In this document: positions 27,272 to 33,151 of the stretch, one piece after another | How positions within the stretch are numbered: the first letter of the stretch is position 1 | Layout of the letters: each line of letters opens with the position of its first letter | From: Hydrotalea sandarakina | GTDB lineage: Bacteria > Bacteroidota > Bacteroidia > Chitinophagales > Chitinophagaceae | NCBI RefSeq assembly: GCF_003254115.1 | Contig: NZ_QKZV01000002.1 | Location: forward strand, 389,736-453,735 | Length of the DNA stretch: 64,000 bases | Direction of reading: 5' to 3' | Translations under genes and position numbers: made by a program | The notes under the pieces: generated by a model | Databases searched by the model: none | What the model saw: only the letters and a program-made list of their open reading frames with translations | Told to the model about the DNA's origin: nothing

Positions 27272-29290
27272 TTATTTATGCTCTGCTACTTGTATAAGAG
27301 TAGGAGCTGCATAGCTCATTTTTTCTTCATCTTCTTGAATGGTTGCTATGCCGCCTGAAAACTGTCCGGGTGTTGTTATTATGCCGTAATATCGAATAAT
27401 TTGTTTTGTAGAAGTTACGTTAAGTTTATATTGAAAGCCAGAATAAATGCCAGAATTAGTATGGGTTTCGATATTTGAAGCCAATCGGTATATTTTTATG
27501 CAAGAAGGAAAATTGTCTGTTAACAGGCAATTGGTAATGGTATGATTACTTTGTACACCTATTTCAATCATAACGGTATCGCCTATGTGTAATGTTTCCT
27601 TGCTTTGATAAGTTTCCCAAATGTTTTCTTTACTTGGATTCTTAACAAAGAATTTTTTTGAAATTTTTATAGCTTGGTTAGTTAATTTTCCGGGAATGTT
27701 ATCAACATTTTGTAAATATTGCCATTGAAAATTTCCGTACCAATCATTGCCCGATTTTGTAGGCAGGTTTAGTTGCATTTTAACAGGTGAATTTTCTAAT
27801 TGTTGAATCGGTATTTCCTGAATACTATTTTCCCTAAACGCAAAGGCGGTATTGTTAATGTTGGCAGTAATGTTGAATGGATTATTAGCAGCAAAGCTTA
27901 ACAGGGAAGCGCCGGTAATAACAGTTGAAAAACGGTCAACCGAAGCTGATTTTAAAAAATTATTACTAATGTTTTGCAGATATGTATTTATAAAATTTGT
28001 TGAAAATAGTGCCGGATTTTTTTGTATTAATTGTAAGATGTATGCATGGGTTAATGTATTAGTCTCGCCAAAGTTAGTTTTGGTAATTAAGCGCTTAATA
28101 ATGGTCTTGAAAACTACATCGGTATCATTACATTGTTGTAAAGTTACAGCCAATAAGGCTTGTTCATGAAAGCTTAAGTTAGAAGCTTTTTGCTTTAAGA
28201 ATTGCAGTTGTAAAGAGTCGGTATTGCTAAATTTAGTAACAAATTGAAAAGTTGCTTTGCTAAATAAGCAGTATAAACTAGTAAAAGTATTTGTGGCGCT
28301 TGGATTGCTAAACTGTTGATTTAGCCCATTAATACCGGGTTGTATTAAATTAGTAATGCTTTGTTGTATGTTATGATGATGATGGTTTAATGAGTAACTG
28401 CACGCTAATAAATACAAAATTTTTGCGTTTAAAAGGGTAGTGGTTGCATTGTTGTCTTTATAAAAACTGCCATTGGGTTGTTGTAATAGTCTTAGTTCAC
28501 GCAAATAGTAGTCCGTTAATGGGTGTTGTATGTTTTTTTGTATAGTATCAAAATGCCCCAAATTAGTAACTGAAAATTGTGACTCTTGTTTTTTCTCTGT
28601 TGTAATGCTGCTAATGAATGTTTCTTTTCGATTTAATAAACTGCCGGCTACTATTTGTAGGGCTTTGTCAATCGGTTGTTCACGGTTACTACTTATTAAT
28701 TCTTTTAGCCTTTTTTGTATGGCATAATAAGGAATCCGATTAAGACCAATTGCGAGTGCAATGGGTGAAATGCTTTCATTAGAAATTTGCAACAATGAAT
28801 CTAAATTGGCGGTATAATTATTTTTTTGTTGAAAATTATACAGCAATGTTTGCTGAATGAATGCTCTATTGGTATACACGGGTAAAATTGTTGCAGTGCT
28901 ATCAGTATATTGGTTGTATTTTATGAAAAGTGTACTCTTTACAGTGTTGTAAAAACTATAAGGAACTTGTATGGGGAAATGGACTAAAACACTATCATTG
29001 GCAGGTACAGTAAAGTATTGAACAGGAAAGCTATTGGTAAACCAGCCATCTACACTGGTGCCGGATAAATAGTTGGTAATTTGTAATTGTGTTTGTCCTG
29101 TAAGTTCAATATTACTTGTATTTTTAATTTTTCCTACAATAAATACTTTATCGCCTTCTCTTAAAAATTCAGGCGTTAATAAACTTATCTTAATTTTTGG
29201 GTCTTCTGAATGCCATTTAAAAAACGGATAGGCATATGAGGCTGTGATATTCAACATTCCAATCAATATAAGAAATAATAGTCGGTACAT
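27272..29290 (-). CDS. Short alpha-2-macroglobulin-like secreted protein (C-terminal half only)
   Basis: 672 residues with a signal peptide ending about ASAYA (residue ~20). Residues ~30-150 (TPEFLREGDKVFIVGKIKN, FTVPANDSVLVHFPI, LPVYTNRAFIQQTLLY) look like the A2M domain of bacterial alpha-2-macroglobulins. Residues ~150-470 are helical, as in the alpha/alpha-toroid (LRLLQQPNGSFY), and the end (ESKETLHIGDTVMIEIGV, NCLLTDNFPSC) resembles the receptor-binding region. There is no CGEQ thioester motif. The N-terminal MG domains and bait region of full-length homologues (usually >1500 residues) are absent, and the gene upstream is the intact sucD. No PBP1C gene is nearby. Function unknown. Confidence 0.7.
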   Translation of the reverse strand: MYRLLFLILIGMLNITASYAYPFFKWHSEDPKIKISLLTPEFLREGDKVFIVGKIKNTSNIELTGQTQLQITNYLSGTSVDGWFTNSFPVQYFTVPANDSVLVHFPIQVPYSFYNTVKSTLFIKYNQYTDSTATILPVYTNRAFIQQTLLYNFQQKNNYTANLDSLLQISNESISPIALAIGLNRIPYYAIQKRLKELISSNREQPIDKALQIVAGSLLNRKETFISSITTEKKQESQFSVTNLGHFDTIQKNIQHPLTDYYLRELRLLQQPNGSFYKDNNATTTLLNAKILYLLACSYSLNHHHHNIQQSITNLIQPGINGLNQQFSNPSATNTFTSLYCLFSKATFQFVTKFSNTDSLQLQFLKQKASNLSFHEQALLAVTLQQCNDTDVVFKTIIKRLITKTNFGETNTLTHAYILQLIQKNPALFSTNFINTYLQNISNNFLKSASVDRFSTVITGASLLSFAANNPFNITANINNTAFAFRENSIQEIPIQQLENSPVKMQLNLPTKSGNDWYGNFQWQYLQNVDNIPGKLTNQAIKISKKFFVKNPSKENIWETYQSKETLHIGDTVMIEIGVQSNHTITNCLLTDNFPSCIKIYRLASNIETHTNSGIYSGFQYKLNVTSTKQIIRYYGIITTPGQFSGGIATIQEDEEKMSYAAPTLIQVAEHK

Positions 29291-29378: not shown

Positions 29379-30251
29379 TTATTTTTTCAATGCTGCGGCC
29401 ATGGTTTTACCAATATCGGCAGGGCTTGCAACAACATGAATACCGCATTCACTCATAATTTTCATTTTAGCTGCTGCAGTATCTTCCGCACCACCAATAA
29501 TAGCGCCGGCGTGTCCCATTCTGCGACCTGCCGGTGCAGTTTGTCCGGCAATAAATCCCACTACAGGTTTCTTGGCATTTTCTTTAATCCAACGAGCAGC
29601 ATCAGCTTCCATACTGCCACCAATTTCACCAATCATTACAATACCTTCAGTTTCGGGGTCGTTCATTAGTAATTTTACTGCTTCAACAGTAGGTGTTCCA
29701 ATAATTGGGTCGCCACCAATACCAATTGCAGTACTAATACCCAAACCTGCTTTTACAATTTGATCGGCAGCTTCATATGTTAAGGTACCCGATTTGGAAA
29801 CAATACCTATTTTGCCGGGTTTAAAAATAAAGCCGGGCATAATACCAATTTTCGCTTCGCCGGCAGTAATTACACCGGGGCAGTTGGGCCCAATTAAACG
29901 AGTTTTTGAACCTTGTAAGTAATTTTTCACTTTCACCATGTCCTGCACCGGAATACCTTCAGTAATGCAAATAACCAATTCAATGCCTGCTTCAGCAGCT
30001 TCCATAATTGCATCGGCAGCAAAGGCAGGGGGAACAAAAATTATACTAACATTGGCTTGGGTAGCTTTTACCGCATCGGCCACGGTATTAAATACAGGTT
30101 TATCCAGGTGAGTAGTGCCACCTTTGTTAGGTGTTACACCGCCTACTACATTTGTACCATATTCTATCATTTGTGTGGCATGAAAAGTGCCTTCCGTTCC
30201 TGTGAAGCCTTGTACCAAAACTCTGGAACTTTTATTAACTAATACAGACAT
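29379..30251 (-). CDS. sucD: Succinyl-CoA synthetase alpha subunit
   Basis: 290 residues, the usual length. The CoA-binding N-terminal domain is [19 protein letters not shown], and [20 protein letters not shown] is characteristic. The phosphorylated active-site His is His247 in [10 protein letters not shown]. It forms the alpha half of the TCA-cycle enzyme; the beta subunit gene sucC is not in this window. A TATTTTTG (30287-30280) upstream may be its -7 element. An intrinsic terminator follows the gene. Confidence 0.97.
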
Positions 30252-30444: not shown

Positions 30445-31011
30445 ATGGCAACAACAGCAGATATTAGTCGTGGCTTAATCATTAAATTAGATGGTAGCCT
30501 TTATAGTGTAATTGATTTCGGTGAAAACAAAACCGCTAGAGCTGCAGCAAAAGTTTGGGCTAAGTTAAAAGGTGTAGATAATAATCGCACTATTGAAAAA
30601 ACATGGAATAGTGGTGAAACAATTCATCCGGTAAGGGTTGAAAAGAAAGCATTTCAATATTTATATAAAGATGAGAGCGGATATAATTTAATGAATAATG
30701 AAACTTTTGAGCAAATTACTTTAGGTGAGGAAATGATAGATTCCCCTCAATTTTTAAAAGAAGGTTCTGAAGTGTTTGTTTACATTAACACCGAAACTGA
30801 AATGCCTATAGGTGCAGAATTGCCGGAAAAAATTGTAGTAAAAATAACTTATTGCGAACCCGGCTTAAGGGGTGACACGGCAACCAGAGCATTAAAAACC
30901 GCAACCATAGAAACCGGGGCTACCGTGCAAGTTCCATTATTTGTGGAGGAGGGTGAATTAATTCGTATTAATACCAAAACCGGCGATTATATTGAACGAG
31001 TGAAAGAATAG
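30445..31011 (+). CDS. efp: Translation elongation factor P
   Basis: 188 residues, standard length, with the KOW-like N-terminal domain and two OB domains (FVYINTETEMPIGAELPEKI, TYCEPGLRGDTATRALKTA, the family signature). EF-P relieves ribosome stalling at polyproline. In the first-domain loop that reaches the P-site tRNA, Escherichia coli has KPGKG with the modified Lys34. Here the loop reads ENKTARAAAKV and the aligned tip residue appears to be Arg32. No modification enzyme gene (earP, epmA or similar) is visible nearby. A terminator follows. Confidence 0.96.
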   Translation: MATTADISRGLIIKLDGSLYSVIDFGENKTARAAAKVWAKLKGVDNNRTIEKTWNSGETIHPVRVEKKAFQYLYKDESGYNLMNNETFEQITLGEEMIDSPQFLKEGSEVFVYINTETEMPIGAELPEKIVVKITYCEPGLRGDTATRALKTATIETGATVQVPLFVEEGELIRINTKTGDYIERVKE

Positions 31012-31028
31012 ATTCACATTTTTTATAA

Positions 31029-31058
31029 AATAGCTTCGCAAATTGCGAGGCTATTTTT
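31029..31058 (+). terminator. Intrinsic terminator after efp
   Basis: AATAGC-TTCGCAA pairs with TTGCGAGGCTATT, followed by T residues (31053-31058). It separates efp from accB. Confidence 0.8.
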
Positions 31059-31191: not shown

Positions 31192-31680
31192 ATGGACTTA
31201 AAACAAATTCACGAATTAATTAAGATTATTAATAAAAGCAACATTGGAGAAATAAGTATTGAAGACAAGGACGGAAAAGTTACTATTAAGCAAAAGGAAG
31301 AACAAGTAATTAATGTGGCACCACCACAACAGGTATACAATGTAGCTCCACCCGTTGCAAACATACCTCAACAAGCGCCCGCAGCGCCCGCACCTGCAAC
31401 ACCTGCTGCACCACCCACTCCAAAATCTGATGAAAGTAAGCTATTAACCATTAAAAGTCCAATGATTGGAACTTTTTATAGAAAATCTGCTCCGGGTAAA
31501 CCTAATTTTGTTGAGGTAGGCAGTGAAGTTGAAATAGGAACTGTTGTTTGTATTATTGAAGCTATGAAACTGTTTAATGAAATTGAAAGTGAGGTAAAAG
31601 GTACAATTGTAAAAGTTTTAGTGGAAGATAGTACGCCGGTGGAATATGATCAGCCCTTGTTTTTAGTGCAGCCCAGTTAA
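31192..31680 (+). CDS. accB: Acetyl-CoA carboxylase biotin carboxyl carrier protein
   Basis: 162 residues. The N-terminal part (MDLKQIHELIKIINKSNIGE) is followed by a flexible Pro/Ala-rich linker (about 43-78). The C-terminal biotinyl domain has the attachment motif EAMKL with Lys126. It carries the carboxyl group in the first step of fatty acid synthesis. accC follows after a 133-base gap on the same strand, so the pair probably forms one operon. Confidence 0.96.
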   Translation: MDLKQIHELIKIINKSNIGEISIEDKDGKVTIKQKEEQVINVAPPQQVYNVAPPVANIPQQAPAAPAPATPAAPPTPKSDESKLLTIKSPMIGTFYRKSAPGKPNFVEVGSEVEIGTVVCIIEAMKLFNEIESEVKGTIVKVLVEDSTPVEYDQPLFLVQPS

Positions 31681-31813: not shown

Positions 31814-33151
31814 ATGTTCAAAAAAATATTAATTGCTAACAGGGGTGAAATTGCTTTAAGAGTTATTAGAACCTGTAGAGAAATGGGTATAAAAACGGTA
31901 GCTGTTTATTCAACTGCCGATAAAGACAGCCTTCATGTACGTTTTGCCGACGAAGCGGTTTGTATCGGTAAACCTGCCAGTTCAGAATCTTATTTAAATA
32001 TACCCCATATAATGGCTGCTGCAGAAATTACCAATGCAGATGCCATACATCCGGGTTATGGTTTTTTGGCAGAAAATGCTAAGTTTTCACAAATCTGTGC
32101 TGACCATGGCATAAAATTTATTGGCCCTACTCCCGACATGATTAACGCCATGGGTGATAAAATTACCGCCAAAGAAACAATGATTAAAGCAGGGGTTCCG
32201 GTTGTTCCCGGAAGTGGCGGTTTGTTAGAGAGTATTGAACAAGCAAAATCATTAGCCAAAGAGATTGGTTATCCTGTAATGTTAAAAGCTACTGCCGGCG
32301 GGGGAGGAAAGGGTATGCGTATTGTTTGGGAAGAAAGTGAAATGGAACGCGCATATAATACTGCGAAAGCAGAAGCAGGAGCTGCTTTTAAAAATGATGG
32401 GGTTTATATGGAAAAATTTGTAGAAGAGCCTCGTCATATTGAAATTCAGGTAGCTGGCGACCAATATGGAACAGTTTGCCATTTAAGTGAGCGCGATTGT
32501 TCCATTCAAAGGCGTCACCAAAAATTGGTTGAAGAATCTCCTTCACCTTTCATGACCCCCGAACTGAGGGAAGCTATGGGAGCTGCTGCTATTAAAGCTG
32601 CTTCTGCCATTAATTATGAAAGCGTTGGTACCATTGAATTTTTGGTTGACAAACACCGCAATTTTTACTTCATGGAAATGAATACGCGTATTCAAGTTGA
32701 ACATTGCGTTACTGAAGAAGTAATTAACCATGATTTAATTAAAGAACAAATAAAAATTGCTTTAGGCGAACGTATTTCCGGACGGAACTATTTCCCTCAA
32801 ATGCATGCTATTGAATGTAGAATTAATGCGGAAGATCCCTACAATGATTTCAGACCTTCACCCGGTAAAATAACTACTTTACATACACCCGGTGGACATG
32901 GTGTAAGAGTAGATAGCCATGTTTATGCAGGATATGTTATTCCGCCATTCTACGATTCTATGATTGGAAAATTAATTACCGTAGCACAAACCCGCGAAGA
33001 AGCTATTGATACCATGTATCGTGCCTTAAGCGAATATGTAATTGAAGGTGTTAAAACCACTATTCCTTTTCATTTACAACTAATGAAAAATGAAGATTTC
33101 AGAAGTGGTAATTTCACTACTAAATTCTTAGATACCTTTAAGATGCAATAG
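31814..33151 (+). CDS. accC: Acetyl-CoA carboxylase biotin carboxylase subunit
   Basis: 445 residues, standard length. The N-terminus [16 protein letters not shown] is diagnostic. The ATP-grasp domain has the Gly-rich loop [10 protein letters not shown], and [14 protein letters not shown] holds catalytic residues (usually NTRLQVEH). It carboxylates biotin on AccB using ATP and bicarbonate. Ends before a palindromic terminator. Confidence 0.97.

Follow-up and report, generated by a model that had tools for sequence, protein, structure and literature searches.

How does an elongation factor P (EF-P) work when the lysine that is modified in other bacteria is apparently replaced by arginine? The question is raised by the efp gene of Hydrotalea sandarakina. 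A sequence-only reading of the window (the whole stretch of 64,000 nucleotides that was analysed) had placed Arg32 at the tip of the β3–β4 loop and offered three options: rhamnosylation by EarP as in Pseudomonas, another modification of the arginine, or an unmodified EF-P with an altered loop. Published accounts link Arg-tipped EF-P to EarP, the unmodified form being poor or inhibitory. The gene and its loop are laid out as follows:

30445–31011, + strand: efp, elongation factor P, 188 amino acids, single genomic copy
30496–30528, + strand: β3 strand of the KOW domain, residues 18–28 (AlphaFold model)
30529–30549, + strand: β3–β4 loop, seven residues, K29-T-A-R-A-A-A35 (alignment and AlphaFold model)
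30538–30540, + strand: codon AGA for the tip residue Arg32, which corresponds to Lys34 in E. coli EF-P
30550–30573, + strand: β4 strand, residues 36–43, KVWAKLKG, with K36, W38 and A39 family-specific (model)

The efp frame is intact (188 codons, no stops) and a whole-genome search found one EF-P copy. The protein scored 197.1 bits against the NCBIfam efp equivalog TIGR00038, over the cut-off of 185.8, and PF08207, PF01132 and PF09285 (KOW, OB and C-terminal) were also all over cut-off. The best solved matches of its model in Foldseek were EF-Ps (1ueb, TM 0.82; 6s8z, TM 0.84).

The loop, KTARAAA, stands between FGEN and KVWAKLKG. When the protein was compared with the EF-Ps in the PDB using phmmer, the loop region aligned without gaps, Arg32 pairing with the KPGKG lysine of 1yby, 6rji and 6s8z and with the KLGRGG arginine of 1ueb, the Thermus thermophilus protein. 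In an AlphaFold model (43 sequences, mean pLDDT 72.8, below 50 at residues 31–33, the loop tip), β3 comprised residues 18–28, the loop 29–35 and β4 36–43. As the strands are so placed, Arg32 is the centre of the loop, residue four of seven. Lys29 and Lys36 flank Arg32 on either side and neither is at the tip in the model, where pLDDT is low; a Lys placed there would have counted against the sequence-only reading. From the gapless alignment and the model, the claim that Arg replaces Lys at the tip was right, as was the assignment of the lineage to Bacteroidota. Cutting by trypsin at an unmodified Arg32 leaves the peptide TAR, and Lys-C leaves TARAAAK (residues 30–36).

The distribution of this loop was then followed across Bacteroidota, the family being Chitinophagaceae, apparently in the GTDB sense. 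A whole-protein search found one EF-P each in 60 of 61 genomes, that of Hydrotalea included. All 36 family EF-Ps that were read residue by residue, which are 64–100% identical to the query, carry Arg32 together with Thr30, so that the arginine is not a chance occurrence. In the order's other families 23 EF-Ps were read, and all have a Lys tip with Pro at −2 (KPGKG); one additional match from this search stopped short of the loop and is outside the 23. A DNA pattern for the loop was found in 14/14 family genomes and 0/382 others in a phylum sample, and in 116/118 family genomes and 0/181 others in an order sample. One exception, G566, differs by V37F but retains the loop; with it included, the loop is present in 117 of the 118. 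The same pattern matched named genomes of Chitinophaga, Niastella, Terrimonas, Sediminibacterium and Ferruginibacter, and also of Filimonas, Flavihumibacter, Cnuella, Niabella and relatives. Loci found by the pattern (most of L060–L192) carry the loop by construction and were excluded from the loop frequency. On these sequences the Arg-tip loop is a trait of the family Chitinophagaceae.

No EF-P match was found in one family genome of the order sample, G611, which is rated 100% complete; this may reflect a missing contig or a real loss. EF-Ps with the TAR loop were also seen in two metagenome-assembled genomes (MAGs) titled Azovibrio restrictus (L075) and Comamonas sp. (L080). Both proteins are Chitinophagaceae-like over their whole length, accB–accC adjoin efp in L075, and EarP had no match in either genome. 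These two records are taken as misnamed or mixed MAGs and not as cases of transfer. Many other Bacteroidota families hold EF-Ps with an Asn tip (loops RTPGNLRAF or NPGNWRAF; L334, L337, L339–L342, L344–L349). Asn tips are already known in EF-P. Tips of three kinds, Lys, Arg and Asn, therefore occur within Bacteroidota, in a pattern worth mapping. In the collection of papers that was searched, none dealt with EF-P in Chitinophagaceae, though the sequences may sit unremarked in published data sets, and a search for the PGKGP loop was without match.

The change is not limited to the tip. Fourteen residues are invariant within the family but almost never seen beyond it (I12, G26, N28, T30, A31, R32, K36, W38, A39, G43, D45, N46, P62 and N115), and 11 of them are within residues 26–46; the count includes loci found by the pattern, and so is partly so by construction, and the unbiased whole-protein set agrees. 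As the rewriting is concentrated in residues 26–46, the hairpin was evidently rewritten as a block. Strand β4 was altered as well (F36K, R38W, T39A), which could not be seen in the sequence-only reading. Two divergent family members, L035 and L036, keep the outgroup S43 and TGK turn, suggesting that residues 26–40 changed before the rest of the hairpin.

In a tree calculated without columns 24–46, the family EF-Ps form one clade (100/99), which sits inside the clade of EF-Ps from Bacteroidota of the same order (97/89), and the T. thermophilus, EarP-type and EfpL sequences fall outside the Bacteroidota clade. The surroundings of the gene were examined alongside the tree:

29379–30251, − strand: sucD-like subunit of succinyl-CoA ligase, a divergent neighbour of efp in some members of the family
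31027–31057, + strand: terminator-like hairpin of 14 pairs, just 3′ of efp
31192–31680, + strand: accB, biotin carboxyl carrier protein, conserved downstream neighbour
31814–33151, + strand: accC, biotin carboxylase, conserved downstream neighbour

Among the 87 family loci reaching far enough, 86 have accB after efp, as do 9 of 10 loci of other families; accC follows in 8 of those 10. The clade obtained without the loop columns and the kept gene order therefore indicate vertical descent with an in-place switch and no transfer. On the family's stem branch, KPGKGxA-F-V-R-T was rewritten in place to KTARAAA-K-V-W-A. As judged from sequence, the Arg-tip EF-P arose from a Lys-tip ancestor by this switch, a family-wide trait made at a conserved efp–accB–accC locus, which goes beyond what had been read from the window. 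The gene at 30445–31011 encodes a genuine EF-P, the sole one of this Chitinophagaceae bacterium, and was inherited vertically. The hairpin 3′ of efp suggests that the gene is largely its own transcript. At 27272–29290 (− strand) is a 672-residue protein in which the MG10 domain of bacterial alpha-2-macroglobulin occurs alone, at its end, and which could be the C-terminal portion of something longer.

The possibility that a known enzyme modifies Arg32 was investigated with profile searches. EarP (PF10093) was without a match in the Hydrotalea genome itself. The same result came from 10 additional genomes of the family, from the 10 genomes to which named loci belong, and from another set of 26 family genomes plus 9 from elsewhere in the order. 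These negatives cover at least 37 family genomes (its own and at least 36 more, nearly all of the latter over 95% complete). All three positive controls, which were run together with the 26 family and 9 other genomes, were recovered (Aeromonas 489 bits, Pseudoalteromonas 417, Fusobacterium 350). Across 19 genomes the EfpL and EpmA models gave nothing above cut-off, and control genomes passed. Matches to TIGR00462 (EpmA) below cut-off were in frames of about 480–610 residues, as expected for aminoacyl-tRNA synthetases. The Arg tip and the lack of a TIGR00462 match over cut-off in those 19 genomes speak against a protein modified by EpmA.

Three known types of Arg-tipped EF-P can be compared with that of Chitinophagaceae. 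EarP-type EF-Ps (Pseudomonas, Neisseria, Shewanella, Fusobacterium) share the seven-residue loop, the Arg tip, the absence of Pro at −2, Lys at −3 and Ala at +3, but the Chitinophagaceae proteins have Thr-Ala-Arg-Ala rather than Ser-Gly-Arg-Asn, continue into β4 with K36-V-W38-A, form a separate clade and come without EarP, both in the Hydrotalea genome and in the family genomes searched. EfpL (YeiP; E. coli 8s8u) shares the TAR core, the Arg tip and an Ala-rich second half of the loop, and its arginine is unmodified, as Arg32 is in the reading preferred here. Its loop, however, is two residues longer and keeps the upstream Pro, and EfpL is a second copy beside EF-P, whereas the Chitinophagaceae protein is the only EF-P in the genome. 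T. thermophilus EF-P (1ueb, loop KLGRGGAKVVAKFK) shares the Arg32 tip and seven-residue loop, and has the pattern K-x-x-R-x-x-A-K-V-x-A-K into β4 in common with 30529–30573. It differs in having Leu-Gly-Arg-Gly and no Trp38, and since it is distant in the tree the likeness looks convergent. EarP had no match in the control genome of Thermus composti, and K36 may go with an Arg tip lacking EarP. The canonical Bacteroidota EF-P (KPGKG) is the orthologue, with the same gene order and 38–53% identity in other families of the order, but has a Lys tip, Pro at −2 and F36/R38/T39 in β4.

The activity of the protein was considered through its likely substrates. ValS keeps its PPP motif (VMPPPNVTG), and among proteins sampled from 30 genomes of the family the PPP count matches chance (22 seen, 20 expected). 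The ratio of PP to expectation, with counts from simple ORF calls on about 8–224 kb per genome, was 0.71 in the family, 0.94 in other families of the order (p = 0.04) and 0.79 in the class; against order and class together the difference is not significant (Mann–Whitney p = 0.17). A first sample had suggested that polyproline is depleted, which could mark a weak EF-P; this idea was dropped, as the larger sample failed in this last comparison. The Chitinophagaceae EF-P looks active from these sequences: it is under constraint and substrates remain.

The explanation favoured here, on balance and with some reserve, is that this Arg-tip EF-P is active without being rhamnosylated and is probably unmodified, like E. 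coli EfpL. Arg32 most likely carries no modification because EarP is absent and because the TAR core is common to EfpL, whose Arg33, in that core, was unmodified by mass spectrometry (PMC11611912). Volkwein et al. described Arg-type EF-Ps without Pro at −2 and inferred that EarP came later than the Arg/no-Pro state (PMC6544042); the sequences fit Chitinophagaceae being a lineage in that state without EarP. By orthology, when a ribosome stalls at XPPX, EF-P would bind in its E site, with the domain I loop toward the CCA end of P-site tRNA-Pro. The side chain of Arg32 would stand in for the modified lysine and make the contact with the CCA end that this lysine makes in E. coli, and the altered loop and β4 (no Pro at −2, Ala-rich loop, K36, W38) may compensate for the missing modification. 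The central position of Arg32, its invariance down to 64% identity and the absence of EarP with a working control all agree with this. Several points speak against it. EarP-type EF-P lacking its modification, in the cases examined, had no activity or was inhibitory on E. coli ribosomes and showed only weak activity in Neisseria (PMC4739656, PMC6544042). EfpL presumably compensates by a loop two residues longer, a length that the Chitinophagaceae protein does not reach; confidence in the model is low at the tip; and the PP ratio, somewhat below that of the order's other families, is what a less effective EF-P might leave, although the difference is not significant against order plus class. A reasonable possibility, if not the expected outcome, is that Arg32 is modified by an enzyme other than EarP (e.g. 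with another sugar, a methyl group or ADP-ribose) that is restricted to Chitinophagaceae or was recruited by them. The loop and next strand are near-identical while family EF-Ps drift to 56% pairwise identity, which would suit a target of modification, but an unmodified catalytic loop is equally expected to be strictly conserved. The Pro at −2 has been lost as in EarP-type EF-Ps (PMC6544042), and the enzymes for most Lys-tip EF-Ps are likewise unknown (PMC4739656). In annotated EarP records earP directly precedes efp, whereas no comparable candidate gene adjoins efp in Chitinophagaceae loci, where the kept neighbours are accB and accC. Hardly less probable is a wider reading, in which such an undiscovered enzyme, unrelated to EarP, represents a further independent route of EF-P activation recruited after the switch from Lys to Arg.

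The remaining explanations fare much worse. The resemblance of NKTARAAA to the EarP target NKSGRNAA would suit rhamnosylation by an EarP encoded elsewhere in the genome, as in Pseudomonas, but the lack of a PF10093 match in the Hydrotalea genome and at least 36 further family genomes, with controls at 350–489 bits, and the separate clade of EarP-type EF-Ps make this very improbable. Similarly, the TAR core, which also occurs in the EfpL loop SPTARGAAT, might point to a paralogue of the EfpL (YeiP) type or to an EF-P gained by horizontal transfer. The scores are far below the cut-offs (EfpL 101.8 against 216 bits, yeiP 86.8 against 264), the yeiP score is under that of Lys-tip relatives (86 against 95–120 bits) and the loop has seven residues, not nine; as the only EF-P in its genome, nested within Bacteroidota without the loop columns and in the same gene order, the gene can hardly be either. 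That EF-P is degenerate or largely dispensable in the family could draw on the mild PP shortage relative to other families of the order and on G611, but the loop is invariant, there are no stops, all domains are present, the ValS PPP is kept and the PP difference from order plus class is not significant, so that this too is highly unlikely. Of the three options offered by the sequence-only reading, EarP is thus rejected as far as sequence goes, while another arginine modification and an unmodified EF-P with an altered loop both stand, the latter being favoured.

The KTARAAA loop provides a simple diagnostic mark of Chitinophagaceae. A whole, well-sampled family with culturable members has a single Arg-tip EF-P and no EarP, and so presents a natural test: either a bare arginine with the right loop suffices, or a further modification of arginine exists.
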